Below, one piece after another: positions 4,616-63,777 of a DNA stretch of 64,000 nucleotides; the first letter of the stretch is position 1, and every line of letters starts with the position of its first letter. The notes below the pieces were generated by a model that searched no databases, was not told the DNA's origin, and was given only the letters and a program-made list of their open reading frames with translations. A program made the translations under genes and the position numbers. Location of the stretch: NCBI GenBank assembly GCA_020630915.1, contig JAHDIF010000001.1:141073-205072 (forward strand). Direction: 5' to 3'. Source of the stretch: Dokdonia sp. (GTDB taxonomy: Bacteria; Bacteroidota; Bacteroidia; Flavobacteriales; Flavobacteriaceae).

Positions 4616-6657
4616 TAGTTAAGCAACTCTTCAATCTTGGCCTTTACCTTCTCAGTACTAGGAATCATTGTTTCTTCCAGAATACTATTGAGTGGGATTG
4701 CTGGCATATTTTCTGAACCTATCAGTAGCACAGGAGCATCTAACTCTTGAAAACATTCTTCCTGAATTCTTCCTTGAAGACCGCGACTGAATCCGTTGTT
4801 AGAAGGTTCTTCTGTGACCACAAGGCACTTCCCACATTTCTTAACAGATTTAAAAACCGTTTCATAATCTAGCGGGTGTAAGGTTCTTAAATCTACAACC
4901 TCGATTCGATCTTTCATTCCCAGTTCTGCACTGGCATTCATTGCCCAATGTACACCCATCCCGTAAGTAATGATTGAGACGGTTTCTTGATCTTCCTGTT
5001 TCCAGATTTCTTGTAGCACATTTGCCTTTCCAAAAGGTAGCATATACTCTTCATCTGGCATCACTGAGGTTGCGCCTTGTGTACCTGGCACCTTAGACCA
5101 ATACAAGCCCTTATGCTCAAAAATAACGACTGGATTAGGATCATAATAGGCAGCTTTTAATAACCCCTTTAAATCGGCACCATTAGATGGATAGGCTATT
5201 TTGAGTCCGCGTATGTTGGTGACCACACTCTCTACAGAAGAAGAGTGATAAGGTCCTCCAGAACCATACGCCCCAATAGGCACTCTTAAGATCATAGATA
5301 CAGGCCATTTACCATTGGATAAATAACATGATCTAGACACCTCTGTAAACAATTGGTTGAGTCCAGGCCAGATATAATCTGCAAATTGCACCTCAACAAT
5401 CGGTTTTAATCCTACGGCACTCATCCCAACCGTAGATCCTACTATAAATGCTTCTTGTATGGGTGTATTAAACACACGATTATCTCCAAATTTTTGCGCT
5501 AGTGTCGCGGCTTCTCTAAAAACACCGCCTAGTCTTCCTCCTACATCTTGCCCGTACATCAAGCATTCTGGATGCTTGCGCATTAACTCTTCTACAGCAA
5601 ATAGTGCGCAGTCTACCATCACTACTTTATCGCCATCCTTTGGAGAGCGTTCACCTACTTCTTCTGTAACTTGTGTTGGGACAAAATCGTGGGTAAACAA
5701 ATCTTCTGGTGAGGGATCTGCCGCCTGTAATGCTTTATCTAATGCTTTTTGAGTTTCTGCTTTCGCGAAAGCGTTAAACTCCTCTATATCATCATGAGAG
5801 AACCCCTGATCCAATAGCAATTGAACCATTTTAGGATACGGATCACGACTACGTGCTTCTTCCAAATCATCACGATACCACTCCATACGTACTCCAGAAG
5901 TATGGTGATTTAAGAGCGGTACTTTTGCGTGTACTAAGAATGGGCGACGCTCTTTTCTAATAGTTTGGATTACTTTTTCCAACGTATCATAACTCTCCTC
6001 AAAATCCGTCCCGTCTATAGAAACGGCTTCCAAGCCGTGAAAACCTGCTGCATATTCATAAGCATTTTGTGCTCTGGTTTCGGCTTCGTTTGCGCTTATA
6101 TCCCAACCGTTATCTTGTACGAGGTATAAAATCGGTAGCTGTTTGAGAGCTGCCATCTGGAAAGCCTCGGCTATCTCCCCTTCTGTGACAGATGCGTCCC
6201 CCAACGAACAGACCACAAAAGGAGCTTCACCATGGTCTTGTAAATCTTCTAATTCTTTATAAGCAAAACCCATTGCTACTCCGGTTGCAGGAATAGCTTG
6301 CATTCCTGTAGCACTACTTTGATGCGGAATCTTCGGCTTATCATCATCTCGTAAACTAGGATGTGAATAATATGTGCGTCCCGCCGAAAAAGGATCATCC
6401 TTTTTTGCTAGTACCTGTAACATCAAATCATAAGGCTTCATCCCAATCGCAAGCAGCATAGAGTCATCACGGTAATAAGGGAAAGCATAATCCTGAGGCT
6501 GGAGCTGCATCCCTATTGCGGTCTGAATGACTTCATGACCTCTACTCGTGGCGTGTACATACTTTGAAACTACTTTAAAATTGGCTTCGTATAACTCGGT
6601 CATTGCCTTTGCTGTACAAAGATTTACAAATGCCTTTTTGAGAATTTCTTTATTCAT
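4612..6657 (-). CDS. Branched-chain 2-oxoacid dehydrogenase E1, alpha-beta fusion
   Basis: A 681-residue thiamine-diphosphate enzyme that decarboxylates the 2-oxoacids of Leu, Ile and Val and transfers the acyl group to the E2 lipoyl arm. Residues 1-300 form the alpha part, with GDASVTEGE and DNGWDIS as the ThDP/Mg motif. Residues 345-681 form the beta part, with YGQDVG, PIQEAFIVG and a transketolase C-terminal domain. The linker contains an AFAKA segment encoded by a genome palindrome at 5759. Alpha-beta fusion in one chain is known in Bacteroidota; most bacteria have two genes. It is last in the operon E2-ilvE-E1. No E3 is present, so that subunit must come from elsewhere. Confidence 0.92.
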   Translation of the reverse strand: MNKEILKKAFVNLCTAKAMTELYEANFKVVSKYVHATSRGHEVIQTAIGMQLQPQDYAFPYYRDDSMLLAIGMKPYDLMLQVLAKKDDPFSAGRTYYSHPSLRDDDKPKIPHQSSATGMQAIPATGVAMGFAYKELEDLQDHGEAPFVVCSLGDASVTEGEIAEAFQMAALKQLPILYLVQDNGWDISANEAETRAQNAYEYAAGFHGLEAVSIDGTDFEESYDTLEKVIQTIRKERRPFLVHAKVPLLNHHTSGVRMEWYRDDLEEARSRDPYPKMVQLLLDQGFSHDDIEEFNAFAKAETQKALDKALQAADPSPEDLFTHDFVPTQVTEEVGERSPKDGDKVVMVDCALFAVEELMRKHPECLMYGQDVGGRLGGVFREAATLAQKFGDNRVFNTPIQEAFIVGSTVGMSAVGLKPIVEVQFADYIWPGLNQLFTEVSRSCYLSNGKWPVSMILRVPIGAYGSGGPYHSSSVESVVTNIRGLKIAYPSNGADLKGLLKAAYYDPNPVVIFEHKGLYWSKVPGTQGATSVMPDEEYMLPFGKANVLQEIWKQEDQETVSIITYGMGVHWAMNASAELGMKDRIEVVDLRTLHPLDYETVFKSVKKCGKCLVVTEEPSNNGFSRGLQGRIQEECFQELDAPVLLIGSENMPAIPLNSILEETMIPSTEKVKAKIEELLNY
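5759..5772. repeat. Palindrome GCTTTCGCGAAAGC (inside E1)
   Basis: Exact 14-bp copy, read in the host gene as AFAKA in the linker between the alpha and beta parts. Confidence 0.95.
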
Positions 6658-6690
6658 AGTTTGTGCTTATTTAGACAAGCCACTTTGTTT

Positions 6691-7776
6691 TTATACTAGT
6701 TCTTTTGACCCAACTGGCAACATCCAATTAAATGGATCTTCTCCTCCCGTTTTAATATCGTTAAGTGATTGATTGATATCCTTACCTACGGGATGTTCTG
6801 TGGACACGGGTATGGTCTCTTCACCCCAACCTATCTCCTGAATATATGTAATTCCTACAGCGGTTCCTGTTCCAAATGCTTCTTCCAAAGTTCCGTCTTG
6901 AGAGGCCGTCGCTATTTCTTGAAGGGTGATTTTACGTTCTGTTACTTCAAAGCCTTTATGGCGAAGTAAATCTATCACACTTTTACGTGTGATCCCGTGT
7001 AAGACAGAACCATCTAATTCTGGTGTAATAAATGCGCCGTCTATCTTGAAAAAGATATTCATCGTTCCTACTTCCTGAATGTATTTGTGTTCGTGGGCGT
7101 CTAACCATAGTACTTGATCATATCCTTTAGATTTTGCAATCTCGGTAGGTCGTATTGCAGCGGCGTAGTTCCCAGCGGCTTTAGCCTCGCCAGTTCCTCC
7201 ACTAGCAGCACGTATGTATTCTTTTTCTGCCCATAATTTTATAGGGGTACTAAAGAAAGGACCTGCTGGTGAAGCAATAATGATAAATTTAAAACTAGTC
7301 GCTGCTCGCATCCCAATAAAAGGCTCATCTGCATACATAAAAGGCCTTAAATACAATGCGCTTCCTTCGGCTGGCGGAATCCATCCTTTCTCTACATCTA
7401 CTAAGGATTTTAGTGCAGCTACAAAAAGATCTTCTGGAAAATCTGGCATTCCCATACGCCTTGCACTTTCATTAAGTCGTTTGGCATTTTCTTCCGGACG
7501 GAAAAGTAAAGGAGTTCCTGAGTCTGCTTTCGCGAAAGCGTTATCCTTAACAACAGTTGCCTTCATTCCTTCGAAAATGGCTTGTCCATAATGCAACGCC
7601 ATTGCCGCTGGATGTGTTGGCACAAGGGCAAGAGGTTCAACCCTTGGATTGTTCCACTGTCCATTTGCAAAATCACATATAAACATATGATCTGTAAAGG
7701 TTCTTCCCAATGGGATATTATCAAAATCGAGATGATCCAATTGGGAATTTCTAGTTTTTGTTATCGTTATATTCAT
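6691..7776 (-). CDS. ilvE: Branched-chain amino acid aminotransferase
   Basis: A 361-residue PLP fold-type IV aminotransferase that interconverts Leu/Ile/Val and their 2-oxoacids. The PLP lysine is in GEAKAAGNYAAA, and EVGTMNIFF follows as the phosphate-binding region. Its length and the ATVVKD...FRPEENAKRLN region fit the eukaryote-like BCAT2 subgroup. An extra NAFAKADSG segment, encoded by the palindrome at 7526, lies in the N-terminal domain where relatives have a short turn. It lies 33 bp upstream of the E1 gene and 66 bp downstream of the E2 gene, so its role here is catabolic and feeds the dehydrogenase. Confidence 0.92.
   Translation of the reverse strand: MNITITKTRNSQLDHLDFDNIPLGRTFTDHMFICDFANGQWNNPRVEPLALVPTHPAAMALHYGQAIFEGMKATVVKDNAFAKADSGTPLLFRPEENAKRLNESARRMGMPDFPEDLFVAALKSLVDVEKGWIPPAEGSALYLRPFMYADEPFIGMRAATSFKFIIIASPAGPFFSTPIKLWAEKEYIRAASGGTGEAKAAGNYAAAIRPTEIAKSKGYDQVLWLDAHEHKYIQEVGTMNIFFKIDGAFITPELDGSVLHGITRKSVIDLLRHKGFEVTERKITLQEIATASQDGTLEEAFGTGTAVGITYIQEIGWGEETIPVSTEHPVGKDINQSLNDIKTGGEDPFNWMLPVGSKELV
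7526..7539. repeat. Palindrome GCTTTCGCGAAAGC (inside ilvE)
   Basis: Exact copy, read as AFAKA within DNAFAKADSG. Confidence 0.95.
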
Positions 7777-7842
7777 AGTAGGACAATATTTTTATTCTAT
7801 GCTTCTGCAGCATCTCTTATCAAAGTAGAAAAGAGCTATGTT

Positions 7843-9833: not shown

Positions 9834-10433
9834 TCATCTCGTGCGCTTTATTTCCCTTAAGGTTTTATAAAAATCTTCCTGCTCTGGTCTATTTTCTGGA
9901 ATTTCTCTAAGCGGCTCAACCTCTCTCAAAGATTCATGACAATCTGCAGGTAATTGCTGGTACAGTTTTGTGCCAGCCGTTTTCCAAGATATCATCTCGT
10001 CCGAGACTTCTTTTATGGCTTTTGCCGGATTCCCTACAATTAATTGACGTGCTTCAAATACGGTTTCGGCTTTTACAAATGCCATCGCCCCTACAATACA
10101 CTCATCTCCTATCACAGCATCATCCATAATCACACTATTCATCCCTATGAGACAGTTACGGCCTAAATTTGCGCCGTGTATTACAGCACCGTGTCCGATG
10201 TGTGCGCTTTCGCGAAAGCGTATACTCTTACCTGGAAACATATGAACTGTACAATTCTCTTGCACATTCACGCCATCTTCTAGAATGACCTCACCCCAAT
10301 CTCCACGGATGACAGCTCCAGGACCTATATAGCAATTTTTACCAATAATAACATTGCCTGTAACCGCGGCTAAGGGATGTACAAAACTAGATTCGTGTAC
10401 AACGGGTATATGACCTTTGAAGGAGTATATCAT
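9834..10433 (-). CDS. paaY: PaaY-type hexapeptide-repeat thioesterase/acyltransferase
   Basis: A 199-residue left-handed beta-helix protein of the gamma-carbonic-anhydrase/PaaY group. Hexapeptide repeats run from about residue 12 to 150 (for example VTGNVIIGKNCYIGPGAVIRGD), with metal-binding histidines in the VHMFPG, AHIGHG and VIHGAN parts. E. coli PaaY is 196 residues long and hydrolyses dead-end CoA thioesters formed when the oxepin pathway stalls. The C-terminal LREVEPLREIP tail is typical of PaaY rather than of carbonic anhydrases. It is the last gene of the paa operon; its ATG directly abuts the stop of the preceding gene. It contains the palindrome at 10206, read as RFRES. Confidence 0.85.
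   Translation of the reverse strand: MIYSFKGHIPVVHESSFVHPLAAVTGNVIIGKNCYIGPGAVIRGDWGEVILEDGVNVQENCTVHMFPGKSIRFRESAHIGHGAVIHGANLGRNCLIGMNSVIMDDAVIGDECIVGAMAFVKAETVFEARQLIVGNPAKAIKEVSDEMISWKTAGTKLYQQLPADCHESLREVEPLREIPENRPEQEDFYKTLREIKRTR
10206..10219. repeat. Palindrome GCTTTCGCGAAAGC (inside paaY)
   Basis: Exact copy with flanking C and G completing a 16-bp palindrome (10205-10220). It is read in an unusual phase as RFRES. Confidence 0.95.
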
Positions 10434-11186: not shown

Positions 11187-11194
11187 ATTAATCG

Positions 11195-11208
11195 CCCGCG
11201 TATGCGGG
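11195..11208. repeat. REP-like hairpin CCCGC-GTAT-GCGGG
   Basis: Perfect 5-bp GC stem followed on the + strand by TGTCTTTTT, between the hydratase gene start and the GIY-YIG gene stop. On the reverse strand it reads GACACCCGC, which mirrors GACACCCGA on the other side of the GIY-YIG gene. Confidence 0.75.
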
Positions 11209-11221
11209 TGTCTTTTTGATA

Positions 11222-11506: not shown

Positions 11507-11520
11507 CCTTTTCTATCTTG

Positions 11521-11563
11521 AGACACTCGATTTCTCGGGTGCTTCGAGCAGTTTAATTTGTTA
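11521..11563. repeat. Direct repeat, copy 1, beside GIY-YIG gene
   Basis: A 43-bp sequence starting AGACACTCGATTTCTCGGGTG, a hairpin with TTTC loop, and continuing with CTTCGAGCAGTTTAATTTG. It matches 11602-11644 at all but one position. The second half is an inverted copy of the 3' end of paaZ. Confidence 0.9.
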
Positions 11564-11601
11564 TAATATAAAGAAAATAACACAATCTAATTGATTATTA
11601 A

Positions 11602-11644
11602 AGACACCCGATTTCTCGGGTGCTTCGAGCAGTTTAATTTGTTA
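11602..11644. repeat. Direct repeat, copy 2, joined to paaZ end
   Basis: Second copy of the 43-bp repeat. Its hairpin CACCCGA/TCGGGTG (11605-11622) is perfect. Its last bases overlap the paaZ stop codon. Confidence 0.9.
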
Positions 11645-11666: not shown

Positions 11667-14176
11667 TGATGATTTAAGTGTTTGCGTTCTTGTAGGTACC
11701 ATTCGTATTTATTTACGTGACCAAACACAGGACTTTTAGGGGTTGCCTTAGGGTTTTTCTTGAAAAATTCTTGGTACAATTTCCTAGCCTCCCAAAACTT
11801 GGTAATCGCGGTTTCTAAGTCAGGATGGTTTAGCTTTTCTACTTTGCCTTTTTGCATTAATGGCATTTCATAATTTTGAGGCATTTTTTCATAATTCCAC
11901 AAGGTAGCTGCTACTTTATCTATGTATTTCTCAGGAGTCGCAATCTCAAAATCTTGATCTTCATTTCCTGCAACTCGATAGCTCCATTCTAAATGCTCTA
12001 TCATATGTTGAGCAGTCATTATTCCCCAATTAGGCTTACTATCTTCAGACAATTTTGAAAGACATTCCTTAATCTTATCTTCCGTCATCTCCACAAAGGT
12101 TGTTTGCTTTTTCTCTACCATAGTGAGGATAGTCGCTACGGCTACTAGTGCTGTTGCTTCTTCATCTGTCTTGCCGTTTTCATAATCTACAGGCTCTGCA
12201 TCAAACACCTCTACATACCATTTTACAATTCCGCTTGGGTGTTCTCTTCCTGATACATCACGTTCACGTTTTTCCTTACAAGTAAGTCGTACATAGATAG
12301 TATCATTATGATATAATGGACGTAAAAAACGAATATCTTCCAATCCATAATTAGCACTTACTGGTCCTTTATTAGGGTAGACAAACAAGCCTGCCGCCGC
12401 CGAAATGATAAAATATCCATGCGCGGTTCTTTTCTTAAATATACTTCCATCCAGACTTGTGATATCTGTATGCGCATAAAAATGGTCCCACGTAAGATTT
12501 GCAAAATTCTGGATATCGGTATCAGTAAGGGTACGTTTATGCGTCTGCAAACTCATTCCTGGTTTGATATCTTCATAATGATAGGCAAACGGATGCTTTT
12601 CTGCTTCGGTGTATGCGCCATTAGGTTGATAAATCCCTGTGATTTCGGTTAAGCTTGTTGGGCTTCCTTGCACGGCACATCGTTGCATATAATGCTTGAT
12701 ACCTCGCAATCCTCCCATTTCTTCACCACCTCCAGCTCGTCCTGGTCCGCCGTGTACCAATAAAGGTAATGGCGAGCCGTGTCCCGTACTTTGTGGGGCA
12801 CTTTCTCTATTGAGAGTTAATATCCTTCCGTGATGAGAAGCGGCTTCTACGGTATACGCTTTCGCGAAAGCATTATCTGCCGTCACCACACTACTCACTA
12901 ACGAGCCTTTACCCATTTGCGCCAGTTTGATCGCTTCCTCAATACCATCATAAGGGATAATAGTACTCACGGGTCCAAAGGCCTCTACCTCGTGCACCTG
13001 CGTATTTTTAAACGGTGCATCTTCACGCATTAAGATAGGGCTCATAAAAGCACCCTTTGCGCCATCTGCTCCCATAGCGTCGATAGTATCAAAAGAACCG
13101 TAGACGATTTCGGCAGTTTTAGCAATTTTTTCTATTTGAGATTTAAGAGCATCTCTTTGATCATTATTAATAAGGGCTCCCATTCTCACTTCTTTGAGTT
13201 TTGGGTCTCCTATAACAGTACCCTCGAGTTGTTTCCCGAGTGCAATTTGCACATCTTCTACCAGATTGGAAGGCACAATCACACGACGTATGGCGGTACA
13301 TTTCTGGCCACATTTAACCGTCATTTCCTTGCGGACTTCCTTTATAAAAATGTTGAATTCTGGAGTGCCAGGCACAGCATCAGGACCCAAAATACTTGCA
13401 TTTAAACTGTCTGCCTCCATTGTAAATGGTACACTTTCTTCCAGCAATCTAGAATGTGCTTTAAGCATTCTTCCCGTATGCGCACTTCCTGTAAAAGTAA
13501 CTACATCTTGGCTTTCTACTGTATCAAGAATGGAAGTTGTCAATCCTGAAAGCAATTGCAATGCTCCCTCTGGAAGAATACCACTATTGATAATTTCTTT
13601 TACCACGGCTTCCGTAAGAAAGGCGGTTTGTGGTGCAGGTAATACAATCGCTGGCATTCCTGCCATCCAATTTACAGCACATTTCTCTAACATTCCCCAA
13701 ACAGGGAAGTTAAACGCATTTATATGTACTGCCACTCCTTTTTTAGGGACCAAAATATGATGCGCCATAAAACGCCCTCCACGAGAAAGATCTATAGGAT
13801 CTCCTTCTACAGCATAGCTCTGATCTGGAAAGAGTTTGCGCAGTGAAGCGTTTGCAAACAGGTTACCAAATCCACCTTCAATATCAATCCAACTATCAAC
13901 TCGCGTAGCTCCTGTTTTATAACTTATATCATAAAACTGTTCTTTGCGTTTATTGAGATAGAGCGCGAGTTTTTTAATCATATTCCCTCGCTGTTGGAAG
14001 GTCATTTTACGCAATGTCCACCCGTGGTCACGACCATACTGCAAGGCGCCAGCAATATCCAGTCCTTCTGTACTGGTAAGGCCTATTACATCCCCTGTAA
14101 CGGCATCGTACATGTTTCGGGTATTGGTGTTGTCACCCGATACCCAGTTGCCGTTTATATAAGATTCTAAAATCAT
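11642..14176 (-). CDS. paaZ: Bifunctional oxepin-CoA hydrolase/aldehyde dehydrogenase PaaZ with extra C-terminal domain
   Basis: An 844-residue ring-cleaving enzyme. Residues 1-520 are the aldehyde dehydrogenase (EADSLN base region, catalytic Cys in [14 protein letters not shown]), which oxidises the 3-oxo-5,6-dehydrosuberyl-CoA semialdehyde. Residues 530-690 are a MaoC-like hotdog hydrolase ([19 protein letters not shown]) that opens the oxepin ring. E. coli PaaZ is 681 residues; the extra ~150 residues here are a helical DUF1569/DinB-like domain with [13 protein letters not shown] and FGHVNKYEW, whose histidines could bind metal. This C-terminal fusion is of unknown function. The palindrome at 12858 encodes NAFAKAY. 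Confidence 0.93.
12858..12871. repeat. Palindrome GCTTTCGCGAAAGC (inside paaZ)
   Basis: Exact copy, read as AFAKA in the aldehyde dehydrogenase domain. Confidence 0.95.
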
Positions 14177-14187
14177 ATTTCCAAAGT

Positions 14188-14218: not shown

Positions 14219-14251
14219 TATATTTAATTGTCTCTTCTGCTTTCCCTTGTG

Positions 14252-15463: not shown

Positions 15464-15465
15464 AA

Positions 15466-15873: not shown

Positions 15874-17096
15874 TAAAAGAAAGTGTTTTTTTCTTTATTC
15901 ATTTTTCTGAGTAAAGATGAACATCGATACCTATCTTCTCTGTACTCATCATATAAGGCATCCATCTTATTTACACACCAATCGATACCTTTCTCATCTG
16001 CCCAAGCCAGTAACCCTTTAGGGTAATTAACTCCTTTAGTCATAGCATTATCAATATCCTCTGCACTTGCTATATTCAAAAACAATGCGTCTGCTGCTTC
16101 ATTAATAAGCATGACTAATATGCGATCAAAGATTGCTTTTTCGTCTGCTTTATCGCTTTGCTCTCCCTTCGGTCGTGAATCTCGCGAGCTCGATTTCGCG
16201 AAAGCGTTGGTATCCTTAGTAGTATCCTCTACTTTTTTCCCATTATCATCATACTCATAATATCCTATTCCCGCTTTTCTTCCCAAATAACCTGCTTCTG
16301 AAAAACGTTTCTGAGTAAATGAAGGTTTGTATCTAGGGTCAAAATAAAAGGCTTTAAATACGGTCTCTGTCACTGTATAATTAACATCATTCCCTATAAA
16401 ATCCATCAATTCAAATGGCCCCATTCTAAAACCACCTACACTCTTCATGGCGTGATCTATTATAGCAAAATCTGCAATACCTTCGTCATACATACGGAGT
16501 GCTTCTCCATAAAAGGGACGTGCTACACGATTTACAATAAACCCAGGCGTGTCTTTTGCAACCGCAACTGTTTTATTCCAGCTGGCAATCGTGTCTATAG
16601 TCATCTCTAAAGTCTCGTAAGACGTTTGTATGGCAGGAATTACCTCAACTAATTTCATTAAAGGTGCTGGATTAAAGAAGTGAATCCCAACACAGCGCTT
16701 TGGTTCATTTAAAGATGACGCAATAGATGCAATAGACAAACTTGATGTATTAGACGCGATAATACACTTAGTATTTACATATCCTTCAAGTTCTTGAAAG
16801 ACCTTTTTCTTAATGTCTAGATTTTCAACAATCGCCTCAATAGTTAGATCTGAATCTGATAGTTCTTTAAGTGAATTTACATATCGGATATTTTGTTGAA
16901 TACGATTTTTCTCCTTTTCATCAATACGTCCTTTTTCTATAAGGCGGCTGAGTATTTTTTCCAGAGCCGCTTTGGCTCTTTCCAATGCGTCTTGATTAAG
17001 GTCAAAAAGTTTCACCTTACAATCTGCAGTAGCTGCTACTTGAGCAATTCCAGAACCCATGGTTCCGGCGCCAATTATGCCTACTTTTTTTATCAT
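15873..17096 (-). CDS. paaH: 3-hydroxyadipyl-CoA dehydrogenase
   Basis: A 407-residue NAD-dependent 3-hydroxyacyl-CoA dehydrogenase. The Rossmann motif GIIGAGTMGSGIAQ is at the N-terminus, the catalytic region is GIHFFNPAPLMKLVE, and a first C-terminal helical domain spans about 190-280. It then carries a charged insert of about 30 residues around 285-320 (NAFAKSSSRDSRPKG...), partly encoded by a degenerate palindrome at 16194, before a second C-terminal domain copy. E. coli PaaH is 475 residues. It overlaps paaG by 4 bp (ATGA). The insert looks like a disordered linker extended by repeat DNA. Confidence 0.9.
   Translation of the reverse strand: MIKKVGIIGAGTMGSGIAQVAATADCKVKLFDLNQDALERAKAALEKILSRLIEKGRIDEKEKNRIQQNIRYVNSLKELSDSDLTIEAIVENLDIKKKVFQELEGYVNTKCIIASNTSSLSIASIASSLNEPKRCVGIHFFNPAPLMKLVEVIPAIQTSYETLEMTIDTIASWNKTVAVAKDTPGFIVNRVARPFYGEALRMYDEGIADFAIIDHAMKSVGGFRMGPFELMDFIGNDVNYTVTETVFKAFYFDPRYKPSFTQKRFSEAGYLGRKAGIGYYEYDDNGKKVEDTTKDTNAFAKSSSRDSRPKGEQSDKADEKAIFDRILVMLINEAADALFLNIASAEDIDNAMTKGVNYPKGLLAWADEKGIDWCVNKMDALYDEYREDRYRCSSLLRKMNKEKNTFF
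16194..16206. repeat. Degenerate palindrome inside paaH
   Basis: TTTCGCGAAAGCG with the left arm changed to GA instead of GC, read as AFAKS within a low-complexity insert. Confidence 0.7.
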
Positions 17097-17952: not shown

Positions 17953-18453
17953 CTATTTAAGACATTTAAAATAATCAAATGGTTCTTGACATACATCACA
18001 TTTAAATAATGCTTTACAGGCCGTAGACCCAAACTGACTTACCAAGTGTGTTTCTGTAGATCCACAATTGGTGCATTTTACTATTTTCTTATTTCCTAAT
18101 AGCGCTTCCTTATCGGCTTCTGGTGATAGTGGAGCCGCTATTCCATAGTCTTCCAGAGCCTTTCGTCCACGTGGAGTGATCCAATCTGTGGTCCAAGCCG
18201 GTGATAATACCAACTGTATTTTTGCAGTTTTACCCGCTTTCGCGAAAGCAGAAACGATATCATCTCCTATGACATCCATTGCTGGACATCCAGAATAGGT
18301 AGGAGTTATTTTTACTTTTACAACACCATCTATCTCAATTGCCTCTCGCACTACGCCCATATCCATAATAGACAGCACAGGAATTTCTGGGTCTGAAACT
18401 CCTTCTAAAACTGGTAATAAATGTGATTCTATATGTTGGGTTGTCAGGTTCAT
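17953..18453 (-). CDS. paaD: Phenylacetyl-CoA epoxidase assembly protein PaaD
   Basis: A 166-residue protein with an N-terminal MIP18/DUF59 domain (VSDPEIPVLSIMDMGVVRE, TPTYSGCPAMDVI) and a C-terminal zinc-ribbon (CTNCGSTET, CDVCQEPFDYFKC). PaaD is thought to help mature the iron centres of the epoxidase. The ATG at 18453 gives the family length (E. coli about 165); an in-frame ATG at 18516 would add 21 non-conserved residues. The palindrome at 18236 encodes SAFAKAGK. Confidence 0.88.
   Translation of the reverse strand: MNLTTQHIESHLLPVLEGVSDPEIPVLSIMDMGVVREAIEIDGVVKVKITPTYSGCPAMDVIGDDIVSAFAKAGKTAKIQLVLSPAWTTDWITPRGRKALEDYGIAAPLSPEADKEALLGNKKIVKCTNCGSTETHLVSQFGSTACKALFKCDVCQEPFDYFKCLK
18236..18249. 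repeat. Palindrome GCTTTCGCGAAAGC (inside paaD)
   Basis: Exact copy, read as AFAKA. Confidence 0.95.
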
Positions 18454-18539: not shown

Positions 18540-18565
18540 TTCTGTGCTTTCGCGAAAGCACAGAA
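18540..18565. repeat. 26-bp perfect palindrome in paaC-paaD gap
   Basis: The 14-bp core at 18546-18559 is extended by TTCTGT on the left and ACAGAA on the right to a perfect 26-bp palindrome, the longest of the family in this window. It lies between paaC and paaD. Confidence 0.95.
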
Positions 18566-23780: not shown

Positions 23781-24725
23781 TTAAAAATTAATTAAAGGGT
23801 ACTCCTCCTGAAGTAAACGCATATCTTCCTGCATCCTTTCAATAAAGTCCTTATGAGCAGCACTCTCGGGATTAAAAGGTTTATGGTTTAATCTATTTTG
23901 AATCGAGGTTACTTTTTTAAGGATCTCTTTTGCTTTCGCGAAAGCGTATACCTCCACAAACCGCTCCCAAACATAATCTACCGCCTGATCCGAAGGATGT
24001 AGCATATCACTTTTATAAAAACGGTAGTCTCGCAACTCATCCATTAATATCTCATATGACGGAAAATATTGAATGTTATTTCCATTTACCAATTGATGCA
24101 CAGCCGCAATTAAATGCGATTTACTTAAAGAATTCTCCACAATTCCATCCTTAATATGACGCACTGGCGAAACAGTAAATGTGATATTGATGGCAGGGTT
24201 AAAAGTGCTTACTAACCTGCATATCTTAGACAAGCTCTGTAATACATCACCTACCGACAACAGTTCTTTTGAGAATTCTTTTTGAGGCACCTTATGGCAA
24301 TTTGCAACGATCATATTAGTTTTAATATGCTTGTACACCCAAGCGCTTCCTAAAGTGATAAAAAGGTGAGAAGACTTTTTGAGATAATTGCGAAGCAGTT
24401 GCTGAGCCTCTTGTAATTTAATTACAATCTCCAGCCTGCTTAATGCATTTAACTCACTATGAGCGACAAATGACTTCCATATACCCTGATACTCAAAGAC
24501 ATCTTCTTCTTTATACGTTTTATCAAGAATTGCATCCTCAATAAGTCGCTCTATCGCAATAGGATTAAAGATAATCCCAAATGGATTTGTTATAGAGTGA
24601 AATTTATAAAAGTCTAACTTCTTCCAAATATTTTCGGCAAAACAGGACCCTAATAATAATAGTGCATCATCATAACCAAATTGGTTTTTTGAAGGCTCTA
24701 GTGGTATATGGGTTTGTAGTTTCAT
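23781..24725 (-). CDS. GSCFA domain protein
   Basis: A 314-residue cytoplasmic protein with the defining LLGSCFAENIWKKLDF motif near residue 25, PFGIIFNP, and the later TVSPVRH and DMLHPSDQAVDYVWERF motifs. GSCFA proteins are SGNH-hydrolase relatives: Ser in GSCF, the Asp/His pair in HPSDQ. Substrate unknown. Its start abuts the alaS stop, so they are co-transcribed. The palindrome at 23932 encodes YAFAKAKEI. Confidence 0.88.
   Translation of the reverse strand: MKLQTHIPLEPSKNQFGYDDALLLLGSCFAENIWKKLDFYKFHSITNPFGIIFNPIAIERLIEDAILDKTYKEEDVFEYQGIWKSFVAHSELNALSRLEIVIKLQEAQQLLRNYLKKSSHLFITLGSAWVYKHIKTNMIVANCHKVPQKEFSKELLSVGDVLQSLSKICRLVSTFNPAINITFTVSPVRHIKDGIVENSLSKSHLIAAVHQLVNGNNIQYFPSYEILMDELRDYRFYKSDMLHPSDQAVDYVWERFVEVYAFAKAKEILKKVTSIQNRLNHKPFNPESAAHKDFIERMQEDMRLLQEEYPLINF
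23932..23945. repeat. Palindrome GCTTTCGCGAAAGC (inside GSCFA gene)
   Basis: Exact copy, read as AFAKA near the C-terminus. Confidence 0.95.
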
Positions 24726-27490: not shown

Positions 27491-27504
27491 GCTTTCGCGA
27501 AAGC
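27491..27504. repeat. Palindrome GCTTTCGCGAAAGC (5' of M23 gene)
   Basis: Exact intergenic copy, extended to 16 bp (27490-27505), 22 bp before the start codon at 27527. Confidence 0.95.
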
Positions 27505-30213: not shown

Positions 30214-31022
30214 TGCGCTTTCGCGAAAGCATATATCATCCATTCATTACGCTACTATTGATTATTAGTAGTGGTATTTCTTATGGACAATTTGAGATTC
30301 CAGAGAAACCCGCAAAAGCAAATCCAGATGCTGTCTATGATTATATTGGTTTACTCACCAATAGCCAAAAACAAGCCTTAGAGGAAAAATTAATTCGCTA
30401 CAGTGATACCACCTCTACCCAAATTGTTATTGCCATCATATCCTCTACAAACGATGATGATATTGCGATGGTAGGAGCACGCTGGGGACAAAAGTGGGGA
30501 ATAGGACAAGCTAAGGAAGACAACGGCATACTGATCACCCTTGCCAAGGACGACCGTATGGTAGACATCAATACGGGTTATGGTATTGAGTATATTCTTT
30601 CTGACCGCGATGCTGAGCGTATTATTAATCGGGTGATGGTACCTCAATTTAAAAAAGGGAATTTTTATGCAGGTCTTGACCAAGCGACCGATACCATATT
30701 TGATACACTACAAGGAAATTATAAAGGCACTAGGCAGGAAAACACTTCTTTTCATATCCAGCCACTTATTATGTTCATTGTCTTTCTCGTCATTTTTATT
30801 ATTCTGAGTAGAAAGAATAGGGACAACGGCCACGGAAATGGCAAAAGGCGCGCTGCCGAATCATTACTGGACGTTATTATCTTGAGTAATATGGGTCGTG
30901 GCGGTTTTGGCGGAGGAAGTAGCTGGGGCGGCGGCGGTGGCTCTTTTGGCGGTGGCGGTGGTTTTGGCGGTGGCTTTGGCGGCGGTGGCTTTGGAGGTGG
31001 CGGTGCTTCTGGAGGATGGTAA
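30213..31022 (+). CDS. TPM domain membrane protein with Gly-rich tail (YgcG-like)
   Basis: A 269-residue exported protein. The signal peptide is FITLLLIISSGISYGQ, the TPM domain spans about 40-170 (AVYDYIGLLTNSQKQALEEKL...VDINTGYGIEYILSD), one transmembrane helix follows at about 183-200, and a Gly/Phe/Ser-rich tail closes it. The only start at the junction is a GTG at 30213 overlapping the preceding TAG. The palindrome at 30217 follows at once and gives the N-terminal RFRES. No ATG is available, so this start is moderately certain. Confidence 0.85.
   Translation: MRFRESIYHPFITLLLIISSGISYGQFEIPEKPAKANPDAVYDYIGLLTNSQKQALEEKLIRYSDTTSTQIVIAIISSTNDDDIAMVGARWGQKWGIGQAKEDNGILITLAKDDRMVDINTGYGIEYILSDRDAERIINRVMVPQFKKGNFYAGLDQATDTIFDTLQGNYKGTRQENTSFHIQPLIMFIVFLVIFIILSRKNRDNGHGNGKRRAAESLLDVIILSNMGRGGFGGGSSWGGGGGSFGGGGGFGGGFGGGGFGGGGASGGW
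30217..30230. repeat. Palindrome GCTTTCGCGAAAGC (start region of TPM gene)
   Basis: Exact copy that begins two bases after the GTG start codon; read as RFRES. It may affect initiation by folding across the start. Confidence 0.95.
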
Positions 31023-37634: not shown

Positions 37635-37729
37635 AATATTGCTTTTGCGCAAGCATCATTAAAAACATAGCTCATCTAACGTTCTATAACATTAGAAGAT
37701 CCTGCATTAGTCCCTAATGCGCTTAGGAA
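37635..37729. other. Gap between convergent genes
   Basis: Contains a degenerate palindrome GCTTTTGCGCAAGC near 37641, but no clear terminator or gene. Confidence 0.5.
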
Positions 37730-40279: not shown

Positions 40280-40378
40280 AATATATATCGTAAGTTAGAT
40301 GTAGGAAAGATAATAGGATTATTTCTATCTAACAACAAGTATCTATTGGTCCTATATGCTTTTGCGAAAGTGTTCCTT

Positions 40379-43159
40379 CTAAAAAAAGAAAAAAGAGTCA
40401 TTACCCGTCTCACCCCCTTTTCCTAAGGTGTTAAACTTCCAGCTAAGGCTCAACATAAAATATTGCTGCAAGACCGTACTTTGAACGTCTTGAATAAAGT
40501 TTGCATTTGCCGTCCTTCTAGCATTAGTATTCTGATTGAGCACATCGTATACCTTAAAAGTAAGCGTAGCATTGTCCTTAAGGAAACTATAGGCTACCGT
40601 GGTATTCCAAAACCAAGAACTTCTCTGAAAGCCTTCTGCCACATTAGGGTTATAATTGTATAGCATATCATTGCGCCACTCTACATGCTTTATGGCAAAA
40701 AAGCCAGTATTAATTCTCAAGTTGTGATTTACAAACTCTTGATCATCAAAGGCCTCAATTCCAAACTGTGTAGTTGAAAAAGAAATATTATACCTCGGAC
40801 GTATTTCAAATAGATCTTTCCAGGTAAAAGATATGCTTGCATTAGGTGTTAACGAGCTTGTCTTACTGGCATACTGCACACCATTATTGAAATTTATATT
40901 ACGATTAAAGTTACCATAAAGTCCTGCCCCATATTTAAACGTACGCAGGGAGTCCAGTTTGACAGACTTATCATACCCAGTACTCGCGTTAAGACTATAG
41001 TTGCCATCTACATTTACATAGGTAGTATTTCTTACCAAATTCTCATCTACAATAGTCCTACTTGTTACAGCGTCATTAGTAATATTACCATTTAGGTTTG
41101 CATAGTAACTACCACCTTTTTGAAAATCGTAGTTATTAAAACCTGCGTATAGACTATGATTATTAGAAGGTCCTAAGTTGGGGTTTCCTTGAATAATATT
41201 TAGAGGATCAGATACATCAACAAAAGGATTGAGCTGGGATACGTCTGGAGGTGTATTTGTTAAATTATATCCAAGATATGTAGACATTTTTGGACTAAAG
41301 CGATAATTAAAATAAGAAGATAATTCTACTGCTTCAAAGTTTTGTGATATATTAAGTTCAGGTCGCAAGACATCTTCGTTTTCTAGAGTTCGAAAAACAT
41401 ACCCTCCACCAAAACTTAAGTTCATTTTCTCCGTATTCCATCGCATAGATAATTGAGGGGTTGTACGTATATTTCGAGCACTAAAATCTGTACTCAAAAG
41501 CTCATTAAACATTGTAAATCCCTGCGTTGTCTCATCAAAATCAAATGTACTTCGCCTCCTGTCTCTTTGGTCATTTCTGTAAGAAAATTTTGCATCTATA
41601 AATAATTTTTTTGCCACTACAGGAATTCTATAGGTAATATCCCCATTAAATCCATCTAAATTTGTCTCGCCGTCTGTAAACTGGTTTCTTTCTATAAGTA
41701 CAGGATCACCACCAAAAACTTCTGTCGTAGAATTTAAAAACTCTTCAGAGTCTGCTCTATTGACCTCATTAGACACCCGTAATTTCAAGAATGCACCTCT
41801 ATTTCCAAAACGTTTTGTTACACTAATTGTATTGCTAAAATCACGCCCTATGTTTTCTCTGTTAGAAGCCAATGAACTGTTATTTATCAATACGCCTTGT
41901 TCATTAAATGACTCTTCCTTGTTACCATTAAAATTGCGTGCTCTCGCAGCAGAAAAGGAAGGCCTAATGTTTATAAATAAAGTGCTATCTGGTTTAATAT
42001 TTACAGTAAGATTTACGTCTTGATTATCGTTATTACCCCTAGTGCGTGAGTTGCTATTCGTAAAGAATCTGCTATCTGGTAAGATACTTTCTCTTTCAGT
42101 ACGAGTGTCATTTGTGCTGTTTGCGCCAGAATAAAAATAATCTGCGTTCACATCTACCTTCTCACTTATTTCATCGGTATAATTTGCTCCAACATTACGG
42201 CTATTTATAATACCATTACCTCCACCAAAACGCCGTCCTCCTATCCCAAAAGAGCCGTTACTATTCACGTACATACTACCTCCATTCCCAAACATTTTCT
42301 GGATCTCACCAAAGCTAAACCCTGGCGAATTAATATTATTCCCTCCAGCGAGCACACTTATACGTCTATCATTATTAAAAAGATTAACGATTCCAGCATA
42401 TTCAAAACGATCATCTGTGCCACCTCCGGCATTAAGTCTTCCAAAAACACCTTTATTATTTTCTTCGGCAATGGTCAGGTTAATCGTTTTATTTTCTCTA
42501 TCGCCTTCTTCACCTGAGAAAGCTTCATCATCTGTTTTTGTGTCCGTAATCTGTATTTTTTCTACTATTTCTTTGGTGAGATTACGAGTTGCAATTGTAG
42601 GGTCGTCACCGAAAAATGGCTTCCCATTTACTAATATCTTATTAACCTCCTTGCCATTTACTCGTATTTTACCTTCCTCATCTACCTCAACACCAGGGAG
42701 CTCCTTAAGTAAGTCTTCTATATTGGCATCTTTTTTAGTCTTAAAAGATTTCACATTAAATTCTAATGTGTCTTTCTTAACGGTGATAGGAGCTCTACTC
42801 TTTACAACTACTTCGTCTAGGGTTGCAGTTTCATAGTCCAATAGGATATCTCCCACGTTTACAGAACCTTGAGAAAGGTCTAAAACTTTCCTGTAATTTT
42901 CATAACCCACAAAAGAGATATTGAGAGCGACCTTTTTTAAAGGAGTTCTTCCTTCTAACTCAAAAATACCTTTGGCGTTTGTTATGGTGTAAGTAACTAA
43001 TGTGGTATCTTTTGTAGTCTCCACAAAAACCGTTGCGGCTTCTAGTGGTTGTTGTGTCGTTTTATCTTTAAGAGTTCCTTTAACTGAGAAGGTTTGAGCT
43101 TTCGCGAAAGCAAAAACAAACATAAACGCAAATAGCGTTAGTGCACGCAATTGTGTCAT
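40379..43159 (-). CDS. Outer-membrane beta-barrel protein, TonB-receptor-like
   Basis: A 926-residue protein: signal peptide, N-terminal carboxypeptidase-regulatory-like beta-sandwich (FSVKGTLKDKTTQQPLEAATVFV), plug region (LKELPGVEVDEEGKIRVNGKEV, ILVNGKPFFGDDP), then a long beta-barrel of the Outer membrane protein beta-barrel (OMP_b-brl_3) type with C-terminal LSWKFNT. Expected in the outer membrane, transporting an unknown ligand. It has no SusD partner here. The cleavage site of its signal peptide (AFAKAQ) is encoded by the palindrome at 43098. Confidence 0.9.
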   Translation of the reverse strand: MTQLRALTLFAFMFVFAFAKAQTFSVKGTLKDKTTQQPLEAATVFVETTKDTTLVTYTITNAKGIFELEGRTPLKKVALNISFVGYENYRKVLDLSQGSVNVGDILLDYETATLDEVVVKSRAPITVKKDTLEFNVKSFKTKKDANIEDLLKELPGVEVDEEGKIRVNGKEVNKILVNGKPFFGDDPTIATRNLTKEIVEKIQITDTKTDDEAFSGEEGDRENKTINLTIAEENNKGVFGRLNAGGGTDDRFEYAGIVNLFNNDRRISVLAGGNNINSPGFSFGEIQKMFGNGGSMYVNSNGSFGIGGRRFGGGNGIINSRNVGANYTDEISEKVDVNADYFYSGANSTNDTRTERESILPDSRFFTNSNSRTRGNNDNQDVNLTVNIKPDSTLFINIRPSFSAARARNFNGNKEESFNEQGVLINNSSLASNRENIGRDFSNTISVTKRFGNRGAFLKLRVSNEVNRADSEEFLNSTTEVFGGDPVLIERNQFTDGETNLDGFNGDITYRIPVVAKKLFIDAKFSYRNDQRDRRRSTFDFDETTQGFTMFNELLSTDFSARNIRTTPQLSMRWNTEKMNLSFGGGYVFRTLENEDVLRPELNISQNFEAVELSSYFNYRFSPKMSTYLGYNLTNTPPDVSQLNPFVDVSDPLNIIQGNPNLGPSNNHSLYAGFNNYDFQKGGSYYANLNGNITNDAVTSRTIVDENLVRNTTYVNVDGNYSLNASTGYDKSVKLDSLRTFKYGAGLYGNFNRNINFNNGVQYASKTSSLTPNASISFTWKDLFEIRPRYNISFSTTQFGIEAFDDQEFVNHNLRINTGFFAIKHVEWRNDMLYNYNPNVAEGFQRSSWFWNTTVAYSFLKDNATLTFKVYDVLNQNTNARRTANANFIQDVQSTVLQQYFMLSLSWKFNTLGKGGETGNDSFFFF
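43098..43111. repeat. Palindrome GCTTTCGCGAAAGC (in TonB-like gene signal peptide)
   Basis: Exact copy, read as AFAKA. The Ala-Lys-Ala just before Gln fits a signal peptidase I site. Confidence 0.95.
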
Positions 43160-44656: not shown

Positions 44657-44670
44657 GCTTTCGCGAAAGC
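44657..44670. repeat. Palindrome GCTTTCGCGAAAGC (5' of LysE gene)
   Basis: Exact intergenic copy between der and the divergent LysE gene, 16 bp before the ATG at 44687. Confidence 0.95.
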
Positions 44671-46207: not shown

Positions 46208-47725
46208 ATGCCTATCCCTTTTGTACATTCTATCGCTTCTTGGTTCTTAAAAAAGCGTATACACCAGATGGAACTTTTCTTAAAGTATCCAGATGAAGTA
46301 CAAAATGAGCTCCTACTTAAGCTTATTGATAAAGCAAAACAAACGGAGATAGGGAAGAAATATGGTTTTGAGGATATTAAAAGCTATACAGATTTTGCAT
46401 CGATAGTTCCAATTACAACCTATGAAGAAAATCAAGAATTTATAGAGCGTAGCAGAAGAGGGGAGAATAACATTCTCTGGCCTACTCCTATAAAGTGGTT
46501 TGCTCAGAGCAGTGGTACTACAAATGCGCGAAGCAAGTATATTCCCGTAAGTCCAGAATCTTTAGAAGATTGCCACTATGCAGCAAGTAAGGATTTATTA
46601 TGCATGTATCTTAACAATAATGAAGGTTCTCAACTATTTTCAGGTAAAGGGTTACGTCTAGGAGGAAGCAAAGAGTTATATAAATCTAATGGTACTGTTT
46701 ATGGTGACCTTTCGGCTATTTTGATAGATAATATGCCTTTTTGGGCAGAGTTTAGTAGCACGCCCAGTAGCGAGGTTTCCCTTTTAAGTGATTGGGAAGT
46801 AAAGATGCAAGCTATCGTTGATGAGACCATACAAGAGAATGTAACAAGTCTTGCTGGAGTACCCTCGTGGATGCTTGTACTACTCAATAATGTGCTCGAA
46901 ACAACTGGTAAAAATTCTATACTTGAAGTATGGCCTAACTTGGAAGTATATTTTCACGGTGGGGTAAGTTTTGATCCCTATGTAGATCAATATCAAAAAA
47001 TACTTTCTTCTAACAAAGTAAGTTATTATGAGATTTATAACGCTTCTGAAGGTTTCTTTGCGATACAGGATCAAAATGACAGCAACGATTTACTTCTTAT
47101 GCTTGACTACGGGATCTTTTATGAATTTATACCAATGGACAATTACGGTACTCCCTTTGAGACGATCATTCCCTTAACCGATGTAGAAGCTGGTAAAAAT
47201 TATGCCGTAGTCATCACTACAAATGCGGGCCTATGGCGTTATAAAATAGGAGACACGGTTCGGTTTATATCTACGAATCCCTACAGAATAAGAGTAAGTG
47301 GTCGTACCAAACACCATATAAACGTTTTTGGCGAAGAACTCATTATAGAAAATGCAGAGGAAGCTCTTAAGAGTGCTTCTCGAGAAGCAGCTTGCGAAAT
47401 CAAAGATTATACAGCCGCTCCCATTTTTATGGAAGGAAATGAAAAAGGTGCTCACGAATGGATTATCGAGTTTAAAAAACAGCCAGATGATTTTAACGCT
47501 TTCGCGAAAGCGCTAGACCAAAAATTACAGGATATCAATAGTGATTATGCAGCTAAACGTTTTAATAATATCACCCTTAAAGAACCTACTATAAACGCCG
47601 CACGAGAAAATCTATTTTACGACTGGCTCAAGGGAAAAAATAAGTTGGGAGGACAACATAAGGTACCTAGACTTTCTAATTCTCGATCTTTCTTAGAAGA
47701 GTTAAACGCTCTTAATCGTAGATAA
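46208..47725 (+). CDS. GH3 family protein (adenylating enzyme)
   Basis: A 505-residue protein of the ANL-superfamily GH3 family, which in plants couples hormones to amino acids. ATP motif SSGTTNARSKYIPVS, later YEIYNASEGFFAIQD and GRTKHHINVFGEEL are clear. The bacterial substrate is unknown. The ATG at 46208 (MPIPFVHSIASWFLKKR) is typical; an open frame to 46109 adds unrelated sequence. The palindrome at 47498 encodes AFAKA. It is not a phenylacetate-CoA ligase. Confidence 0.88.
   Translation: MPIPFVHSIASWFLKKRIHQMELFLKYPDEVQNELLLKLIDKAKQTEIGKKYGFEDIKSYTDFASIVPITTYEENQEFIERSRRGENNILWPTPIKWFAQSSGTTNARSKYIPVSPESLEDCHYAASKDLLCMYLNNNEGSQLFSGKGLRLGGSKELYKSNGTVYGDLSAILIDNMPFWAEFSSTPSSEVSLLSDWEVKMQAIVDETIQENVTSLAGVPSWMLVLLNNVLETTGKNSILEVWPNLEVYFHGGVSFDPYVDQYQKILSSNKVSYYEIYNASEGFFAIQDQNDSNDLLLMLDYGIFYEFIPMDNYGTPFETIIPLTDVEAGKNYAVVITTNAGLWRYKIGDTVRFISTNPYRIRVSGRTKHHINVFGEELIIENAEEALKSASREAACEIKDYTAAPIFMEGNEKGAHEWIIEFKKQPDDFNAFAKALDQKLQDINSDYAAKRFNNITLKEPTINAARENLFYDWLKGKNKLGGQHKVPRLSNSRSFLEELNALNRR
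47498..47511. repeat. Palindrome GCTTTCGCGAAAGC (inside GH3 gene)
   Basis: Exact copy, 16 bp with flanks (47497-47512), read as NAFAKAL. Confidence 0.95.
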
Positions 47726-49248: not shown

Positions 49249-49262
49249 GCTTTCGCGAAAGC
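49249..49262. repeat. Palindrome GCTTTCGCGAAAGC (clpP-clpX gap)
   Basis: Core of a 22-bp perfect palindrome, TTACGC on the left and GCGTAA on the right (49245-49266). Confidence 0.95.
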
Positions 49263-54876: not shown

Positions 54877-55644
54877 TTATAAAAAATTTATCACTTCTTG
54901 ATAGAATTCTTTAGGATTTTCGGCGTGCAGCCAGTGCCCAGCTTTAGAAATTGTTTTGATTTCCGCTTTCGCGAAAGCCTTATACAACTCCTCCTCATCT
55001 TCTGGAAGAATATAATTAGACCGTGCTCCTTTTAAAAAAAGAGTGTTGCCAGAAAAGGTCTTGAAAGATGCAAGAGGTTTTCCTATTTCTTCAATATTGT
55101 TTATCAACGAAGGTAAGTTAACGCGCAGCCCTAACTTCTTAGGCTCCTTCCAAAAAAGGTTTTTAAGCAAAAACATACGTATTCCTATCTCCTTAATATA
55201 GCCACTTAAAAATGCATCTGCATTTTTACGACTGCTAAGGGCCTCTTCACTCTGTGATAGTGCGTTGAGACCTTTTAAGATTTCTTGATGATGTTGAGGG
55301 TAAAATTTTGGAGCGATATCTGCAATAATTAAAGCGTCTACCATTTGAGGATAATCACAAGCAAATAGCATGGCTGTTTTACCTCCCATAGAGTGCCCTA
55401 ACAAAGAAAATGTCTCTAGATTATAATAATTTGCATATTGAAAAAGATCCTCAACCATTAATTCATAGCTAAAATTGTCTGAATGAAAACTCCTCCCATG
55501 ATTACGTTGATCGATTAAATGGACTTGAAAACCATCATGACTAAATTGCTTTGCCAGAGTCTTCCAATTATCTCCCATTCCTAAAAAACCATGAAGAATT
55601 AGTAATGGCCTTCCTTCTCCTATTATCTTACTATGTAATTGCAC
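54877..55644 (-). CDS. Alpha/beta hydrolase (YbfF-like)
   Basis: A 255-residue alpha/beta hydrolase. LHGFLGMGDNWKTLA, the nucleophile elbow GHSMGG and the final His in GHWLH are visible; RNHGRS is typical of the YbfF/esterase group. It starts at a GTG (55644) that overlaps the pdxJ stop. Substrate unknown. The palindrome at 54965 encodes AFAKA. Confidence 0.88.
   Translation of the reverse strand: MQLHSKIIGEGRPLLILHGFLGMGDNWKTLAKQFSHDGFQVHLIDQRNHGRSFHSDNFSYELMVEDLFQYANYYNLETFSLLGHSMGGKTAMLFACDYPQMVDALIIADIAPKFYPQHHQEILKGLNALSQSEEALSSRKNADAFLSGYIKEIGIRMFLLKNLFWKEPKKLGLRVNLPSLINNIEEIGKPLASFKTFSGNTLFLKGARSNYILPEDEEELYKAFAKAEIKTISKAGHWLHAENPKEFYQEVINFL
54965..54978. repeat. Palindrome GCTTTCGCGAAAGC (inside hydrolase gene)
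   Basis: Exact copy, read as KAFAKAEI just before the catalytic His region. Confidence 0.95.
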
Positions 55645-58047: not shown

Positions 58048-58061
58048 GCTTTCGCGAAAGC
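58048..58061. repeat. Palindrome GCTTTCGCGAAAGC (nadK-DUF6089 gap)
   Basis: Exact intergenic copy, upstream of the DUF6089 promoter. Confidence 0.95.
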
Positions 58062-63204: not shown

Positions 63205-63241
63205 TTTTAAATTTTATAACACTTAATAAATCCAGATTACA

Positions 63242-63757
63242 ATGAAACAAATTAAAAAAGTATTAGTGGCAGTTGCACTAGTAGTAGGAATGAGTAATGC
63301 AGTGCAAGCGCAAGAGTCTAAAGTTGCGCACATTAATACCCAAGAACTCGTAGAAGCCATGCCAAGTTATAAGGCTGCCCTTGCAGATCTTGATAAATTG
63401 CAACGTTCGTATGATAGCCAGATTAATGAGATGGGAACGGAATTACAAAAAACAATGGAACGTTACGGTCGTGAGGTAGAAACTCAGACAGATGAAGAAA
63501 ACTTAAGACGTCAGAAAGAAGTACAAGAAACAAATCAAAATATTGTTGCTTACCGTCAGAACGCACTTAAAGATCTTCAAACGAAAGAACAAGACCTTCT
63601 TAAGCCATTATTGGAAAAAGCTCGTGTAGCAATCCAAAAAGTAGCAAGAGCAAAAGGATACCAGTATGTATTAGATTCGACCCCTGGAGCAGGTGGTGTA
63701 ATTATGGCAGATGGTTATGATCTTTTAAATGATGTAAAAGCAGATCTTGGTATCTAA
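63242..63757 (+). CDS. OmpH/Skp-like periplasmic chaperone
   Basis: A 171-residue Skp-family protein of standard length: signal peptide ending AVQAQ, then VAHINTQELVEAMPSYKAALADL and long coiled-coil arms. Second of two adjacent ompH genes after bamA, likely a duplication of the first without its charged tail. Confidence 0.92.
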   Translation: MKQIKKVLVAVALVVGMSNAVQAQESKVAHINTQELVEAMPSYKAALADLDKLQRSYDSQINEMGTELQKTMERYGREVETQTDEENLRRQKEVQETNQNIVAYRQNALKDLQTKEQDLLKPLLEKARVAIQKVARAKGYQYVLDSTPGAGGVIMADGYDLLNDVKADLGI

Positions 63758-63763
63758 GAGTAC

Positions 63764-63777
63764 GCTTTCGCGAAAGC
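63764..63777. repeat. Palindrome GCTTTCGCGAAAGC (after ompH)
   Basis: Exact intergenic copy 7 bp after the ompH stop, just ahead of the terminator. Confidence 0.95.

Follow-up and report, generated by a model that had tools for sequence, protein, structure and literature searches.

Why does one 14-bp word recur, much of the time inside genes, along the chromosome of a Dokdonia? The stretch of DNA analyzed here (the window) is 64 kb of a Dokdonia genome, and it holds 17 exact copies of GCTTTCGCGAAAGC, a perfect palindrome with the core TCGCGA that is frequently longer, up to TACGCTTTCGCGAAAGCGTA. All 17 lie at the starts given in the initial annotation of the window. When up to two mismatches were allowed, 21 matches were found against 0.15 expected, a number reached in none of 100 dinucleotide shuffles. 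The additional matches, at 16192, 35337, 37641 and 40358, correspond to four of the six degenerate copies first proposed; those placed at about 38770 and 46180 were not found. The source genome (18 contigs, 2.97 Mb) contains 685 exact copies. In an enlarged sample of the same genome, consisting of the window and 19 stretches (415,537 bases), 100 copies were counted, where Markov models of orders 1 to 3 predict ∼0.001, order 4 predicts 0.005 and order 5 predicts 0.6, the last value because the word copies themselves supply the order-5 counts. All single-mismatch variants summed number only 19 in these bases. Chance was rejected on the basis of the shuffles and the expectation of ∼0.001, and the frequency far above chance that had been claimed for the window holds genome-wide.

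We interpret the word as a putative DNA uptake (self-recognition) signal in Bacteroidota, palindromic and kept by biased transformation, a tentative reading to which we give a little less than an even chance. It is favored because the copy number, conservation above the flanks, codon replacement, preference for non-coding DNA, and even spread with short-range exclusion match what has been reported for uptake signals (published work is cited here by accession, from excerpts of each paper). An uptake tag was one of four roles suggested in the initial annotation, and we judge it the best supported as a putative function.

Copies were counted in two sets of genomes. In a draw of 59, all 18 Dokdonia genomes were “loaded” with hundreds of copies apiece (369 to 905), one Nonlabens had 578, one other member of the family had six, and the remaining 39 had zero. 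When 397 genomes were drawn evenly from the family, 80 had at least one copy and just six had more than 19, namely two Dokdonia, three Nonlabens (578, 664 and 609 copies) and G230, a member of a third genus (408 copies). The remaining family genomes searched had 0 to 19. A control word, the pattern read backwards, was present in 0 of 59 and 1 of 397 genomes. High copy number is confined to three genera among those searched. The mean density is ∼1 copy per 4 kb, or one per 7–8 kb in G230. In a tree of AlaRS (the gene was identified by reading), Dokdonia groups as sister to Nonlabens (93/88), with G230 in the neighboring group, a topology that does not separate one origin with losses from two origins of the trait. 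No comparable iterated palindrome was present among the eight top-scoring words when 12 genomes from other genera were scanned over one 20-kb stretch apiece (six without the word and six with 4 to 17 copies; three more genera, represented by fragments of 1.3–2.5 kb, were left out).

Within Dokdonia, the copies are strongly conserved, far better than the DNA around them. Only copies in alignable DNA were counted, and gaps were scored as loss. From G008 to G017, 13 of 13 alignable copies were exact (13 of the 19 G008 copies could be aligned) versus 7.4% of background 14-mers, and from G006 to G017 the figures were 12 of 12 versus 5.9%. In the opposite directions, 13 of 17 G017 copies were exact in G008 (background 7.5%) and 12 of 17 in G006, with background 14-mers at 3–8% over these Dokdonia pairs. 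Seven of eight window copies were exact in G017 versus 3.1% of background; eight of the 17 could be aligned, the DNA around the majority of window copies not being alignable at the nucleotide level with sibling stretches. Comparisons with the more distant G012 gave 5 of 7, 6 of 8, 4 of 7 and 1 of 1 exact copies, versus a background of ∼2%. Identity in the core is 0.95–1.00; that of the flanks is 0.67–0.78 in the G008/G017 pair. DUS (DNA uptake sequences) of Neisseria are likewise conserved, at 97% versus ∼85%, with flanks slightly more divergent (PMC2397512).

The position of the word relative to genes indicates how copies arise. Mechanical open reading frames (ORFs) were used for all coding and phase, outgroup-alignment and insertion counts. 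Eleven of the exact window copies lie in ORFs, nine read as AFAKA and two as RFRES, as first described. The proposal that only one phase is tolerated fails in the enlarged sample, in which the coding copies, 68 out of 100, divide into 39 AFAKA, 14 xFRES and 15 xLSRK; the other 32 fall in the 9.4% of the DNA outside ORFs. For 230 coding copies from the loaded genera, an outgroup relative spans the place in 45, of which 35 are ungapped, 8 have the word in an insertion and 2 have a deletion, although the same gene from several Dokdonia is counted each time and some relatives are below 40% identity. A slightly different set with at least 40% identity gave 35 ungapped cases and 7 insertions. In 27 distinct ungapped segments, identity at the five word residues is 0.28 (16 segments) and 0.35 (11 segments) versus 0.51 and 0.52 in the flanks. 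By these alignments, copies arise mostly through replacement of existing codons, with insertion the minority.

Individual genes illustrate the same pattern. The change from VLEEG to RFRES in the hexapeptide protein (copy 10206) is ungapped, and the rest of the protein is 87% identical. In the E1 dehydrogenase (5759), the word occupies the same five codons in three of three Nonlabens and in four of the five other Dokdonia having a close relative, the fifth having one mismatch. An ortholog comparison had been recommended for such genes, and in this one all seven outgroup genomes hold other residues than AFAKA at equal length, one of them matching the right half of the word. In the aminotransferase (7526; L341–L344), three other Dokdonia lack the 24-bp insertion and have the word in the corresponding segment in a different phase, and in a fourth, G016 (L341), just half of the word is left. 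For 19 coding copies of Dokdonia, a relative from Nonlabens was available; in seven cases (three genes) the relative has a copy within ∼20 nt, which in one of the three genes is in a different phase, so turnover between the genera is considerable. USS (uptake signal sequences) have been proposed to evolve through point mutation, not insertion (PMC1939737), and many recent DUS differ from the homologous sequences by more than single point mutations could produce, which was ascribed to recombination (PMC2397512).

These alignments also bear on the suggestion of a mobile micro-palindrome, a REP- or MITE-like element inserted by a transposase. The minority of copies in insertions (8 of 45; 24 bp at 7526) would fit such an element, but same-length replacement in 35 of 45 cases already largely refutes it. 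Sequence shared by the flanks extends ∼3 bases at most, there is no palindromic extension beyond that predicted by composition, and the even spacing with exclusion is likewise not that of an inserting element. We consider this origin very improbable. Of the initial view of a “spreading or selected” palindrome, the selected or driven part is strongly supported genome-wide, and spreading by insertion is mostly wrong.

The word is flanked by arms of unusual composition. On each strand, the frequency of C 5′ of the palindrome falls from ∼0.19 to 0.03–0.14 per position over −4 to −20, with G and T up, before a slow return over roughly −25 to −40. Counted from −4, the stretch free of C is a median 11 bases long, versus 3 at random places. 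C-poor arms (20–25 bases, averaged) were seen both within and between genes, also in other Dokdonia and in Nonlabens, and in weaker form in G230 (six sites read). Although TAC / GTA is favored at the innermost flanking bases, no fixed motif was seen in the arms beyond C depletion and runs of T or A, and arm sequence is not conserved (between G008 and G017, identity close to the site is 0.67–0.75). Complementarity between the two arms of one site, which a longer hairpin would require, is no higher than composition predicts. We rejected the arms as a by-product of the word, as 161 copies outside the loaded genera (from 28 loci of bacteria outside these genera and 120 viral-contig stretches) are without C depletion; note that the Flavobacteriia loci L032, L038, L047, L049, L050, L062, L065, L089 and L111 (other or uncertain) are in neither set. 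In H. influenzae, where the preference in uptake reaches up to 1000-fold, AT-rich sequence beside the signal adds to uptake (PMC7811141).

Arms that are polar with respect to strand would be explained best by a bidirectional Chi-like site, at which an AddAB-type helicase-nuclease would be switched from either side and RecA loaded on the G/T-rich 5′ arm. On both sides, the strand with the G/T-rich arm is the one expected to end up as the 3′ tail. The density of E. coli Chi resembles ∼one per 4 kb and GT-rich islands are found around it, so that word and Chi are alike in density and in a G/T-rich 5′ neighborhood. However, known Chi sites are 5–8 nt and non-palindromic, whereas the word is palindromic, longer and ∼100,000-fold enriched. 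In addition, ordinary selection on redundant sites could hardly account for protein residues being overwritten in hundreds of places. A search of 36 genomes for RecC (PF04257) gave no match, leaving only other enzymes such as AddAB, which was not searched for. RecA is reported to prefer Chi-resembling TGG repeats (PMC3763553). On balance, we regard a Chi-like function as improbable.

Copies are evenly spread and seldom nearer than ∼1 kb to each other. The coefficient of variation of the spacing was 0.56 in G000, 0.76 in sibling Dokdonia, 0.58 in Nonlabens, 0.62 in the first 230 kb of G017 and 0.68 in G230 (first 100 places). Gaps of less than 1 kb numbered, in the same order, 1 of 91 (20.3 expected), 1 of 75 (18.8 expected), 0 of 16 (3.2 expected), 2 of 66 (606 and 867 bp; 16.5 expected) and 0 of 99 (12.6 expected), and in G230 gaps of less than 1,300 bp also numbered 0 of 99 (16.1 expected). 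Twenty 20-kb stretches of G017 held 3 to 9 copies each, 129 in total (dispersion index 0.30, P = 0.002), and the origin-terminus bias for which a check had been advised was not evident along the chromosome in these stretches. Exclusion over ∼1.0–1.3 kb persists despite a roughly two-fold difference in density between lineages, which points to a physical length (of import, resection or a loop) and not to density alone. For USS, a fairly even distribution is the expected outcome of drive (PMC7811141).

Even spacing would also be produced by a system like HIP1 of cyanobacteria. The TCGCGA core would be the target of an orphan methyltransferase or strand-marking enzyme, and palindromes would be made and kept by methyl-directed repair, saturating at the repair tract of ∼1 kb; an exclusion of this length is as the repair model predicts (PMC4390886). 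Both HIP1 and the word are perfect palindromes, genome-wide and clade-specific, with a putative function. Unlike HIP1, which is 8–10 bp and present at ∼1 per 1 kb, the word is 14 bp, is present at ∼1 per 4 kb and has polar arms, and neither 14 near-invariant bases nor such arms are expected from a methyltransferase. No match to PF00145, PF01555 or PF02086 was obtained in the loaded genomes G009 (808 copies) and G281 (664 copies), other methyltransferase families not having been searched, and G006 (757 copies) has only a sub-cutoff PF01555 match among the three. Genes for C5, N6/N4 and D12 methyltransferases are patchy, scattered also in genomes without the word, and no consistent methyltransferase accompanies it among the three families tested. 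Since G009 and G281 are without these families, a methyltransferase origin is weakened, and with it the methylation target named in the initial annotation; we think it improbable, to the same degree as a Chi-like site.

A third use of evenly spaced sites would be chromosome organization, with a dimeric DNA-binding protein bridging or looping DNA at a nucleoid site. The perfect dyad, the even spread over the chromosome and the absence of the word from two related phages (below) would suit this, and the word shares with parS, Noc and MatP sites the dyad-symmetric look of a protein site. Unlike those sites, however, it has hundreds of copies chromosome-wide. No ParB-family paralogue was found in nine loaded genomes; each has exactly one ParB-domain gene, as found also in 9 of 12 controls with no or few copies. 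The segregation site of the initial annotation is weakened by this single gene (9 of 9) and by the uniform chromosomal density, and the lack of an evident origin/terminus trend counts against an organizing site as well. Moreover, per-site selection on hundreds of redundant sites must outweigh the cost of altered residues. We therefore rate this explanation slightly below the Chi-like and HIP1-like ones.

An uptake signal would operate as follows. These bacteria would be naturally competent, and a receptor, probably dimeric, would bind the palindrome on double-stranded DNA, with efficient loading or bending dependent on the arms. Word-bearing DNA would be taken up preferentially, and recombination of the imported fragments would copy the word into alleles without it. 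The word would then overwrite protein residues through molecular drive and not for any advantage of the individual copy, and a second copy within one imported-fragment length (∼1 kb) would gain nothing, giving rise to the exclusion. Such a driven tag explains best why hundreds of redundant copies overrule protein sequence. The word is like DUS and USS in being one fixed word with hundreds to thousands of copies, conserved over its flanks, acquired via replacement, evenly spread, and with a preference for non-coding DNA and for certain flanking bases. It is unlike them in its form, a perfect palindrome of 14 bp whose C-poor arms are symmetric and strand-polar, in its spacing (∼4 kb versus ∼1 kb apart) and in its occurrence in Bacteroidota, where the uptake bias is putative. 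Riemerella columbina, which is placed in the family there, takes up its own DNA by preference, and candidate uptake k-mers have been named for Riemerella and Flavobacterium (PMC7965970).

Several points weigh against an uptake signal. No study of competence or uptake in Dokdonia or Nonlabens was found in the open-licence literature, and no receptor gene was identified. To our knowledge, strand-polar arms are unfamiliar among uptake signals. A ComEC-type competence-domain gene, in itself favorable to an uptake signal, was found in all 22 genomes examined whether or not they are loaded, and therefore does not discriminate. On the favorable side, two related Nonlabens phages (L453 and L454) have 0 copies in 70.7 kb, and there are 0 in the first 10.7 kb of G000 contig C6 (L132:1-10700), which holds integrase, Toprim and conjugative coupling protein genes. 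Other long copy-free stretches mostly hold ordinary genes, however, so the absence from phages and island proves little. Known uptake signals are not palindromes, according to an excerpt that describes known cases and not a requirement (PMC1939737), and the HIP1 repair model predicts both even spacing and ∼1 kb exclusion (PMC4390886). As a separate observation, the two phages lack TCGCGA altogether in their 70.7 kb, and a DNA methyltransferase gene is annotated in both records.

A more novel description is that of a new kind of chromosome-wide site, ∼60 bp with its strand-polar arms, in Dokdonia, Nonlabens and the third genus, at which a putative protein would act ∼1 kb either way and which would be distinct both from methyltransferase targets and from conventional uptake words. 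We hold this to be unlikely, if clearly less so than the Chi-like, HIP1-like and organizing sites.

Scattered copies also occur outside the loaded genera. G184 and G368 (genus g164) have nine and six, which could be chance or relics of a lost system; at the four of these sites that were read, the arms are depleted of C slightly or not at all. Of 12 low-copy loci read in other Flavobacteriaceae, five (L137, L049, L141, L143 and L001) are in RND/outer-membrane efflux gene regions, an assignment made by Pfam for four of the five. A copy pair with 933-bp spacing is shared by G141, G118, G254, G127 and L049, and the arms at the efflux-region loci are often C-poor. The efflux-region copies look like DNA that has passed through a loaded genus.

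Copies in the window are listed below. Note that the copy at 30217 is at the extreme 5′ end of its ORF, and the true start may come after the word. For the copy at 12858, Nonlabens xiamenensis L097 has the word at the equivalent place. Several copies are inside a gene run (∼10,400–22,200) that reads like phenylacetate degradation, in which the PaaD-like zinc ribbon and the aldehyde dehydrogenase/MaoC fusion were assigned by Pfam and the rest by reading.

Table 1. Exact and near-exact copies of the 14-bp word in the 64-kb window, with residues encoded by the word and local context.
Copy	Coordinates	Residues	Context
Exact	5759..5772	AFAKA	E1-type dehydrogenase gene (Pfam E1_dh)
Exact	7526..7539	AFAKA	Class IV aminotransferase gene (Pfam); length-variable segment, within 24-bp insertion
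Exact	10206..10219	RFRES	Hexapeptide-repeat protein gene (Pfam); outgroup relative VLEEG
Exact	12858..12871	AFAKA	Aldehyde dehydrogenase/MaoC fusion gene (Pfam)
One mismatch	16192..16205		Hydroxyacyl-CoA dehydrogenase-like gene (named by reading only)
Exact	18236..18249	AFAKA	PaaD-like gene (Pfam); ungapped versus outgroup relative, 73% identity
Exact	18546..18559		Between ORFs
Exact	23932..23945	AFAKA	GSCFA-family gene (Pfam); word at homologous place in G008
Exact	27491..27504		Between divergent ORFs, one reading as alaS
Exact	30217..30230	RFRES	Start of TPM-domain ORF (Pfam); retained in G008 next to indel
Exact	32485..32498	AFAKA	CotH-type gene (Pfam); retained in G012, local identity 66%
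Two mismatches	35337..35350		Mismatch scan
Two mismatches	37641..37654		Mismatch scan
Two mismatches	40358..40371		Mismatch scan
Exact	43098..43111	AFAKA	Signal-peptide-like start of TonB-receptor-like ORF (by reading only)
Exact	44657..44670		Between divergent ORFs
Exact	47498..47511	AFAKA	GH3-family gene (Pfam); ungapped replacement, 43% identity to outgroup
Exact	49249..49262		Between ORFs reading as clpX and clpP (by reading only)
Exact	54965..54978	AFAKA	Alpha/beta hydrolase gene (Pfam)
Exact	58048..58061		Between ORFs
Exact	63764..63777		Directly downstream of an ORF

Neither the 14-mer nor a description of it was found in the open-licence literature on Dokdonia or Nonlabens palindromes, flavobacterial uptake sequences or TCGCGA, and no established uptake signal in Flavobacteria or Bacteroidetes was found there. 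We know of no uptake signal outside the Pasteurellaceae and Neisseriaceae. Should the word prove to be an uptake signal, it would be the first that we know of beyond those families and the first that is palindromic, and two short DNA fragments would be enough to test for biased DNA exchange in marine bacteria. If not, many proteins of these bacteria carry five residues forced on them by a process at the DNA level that overrides protein sequence. Either way, the word may act as a bar code for DNA that has passed through the loaded group.

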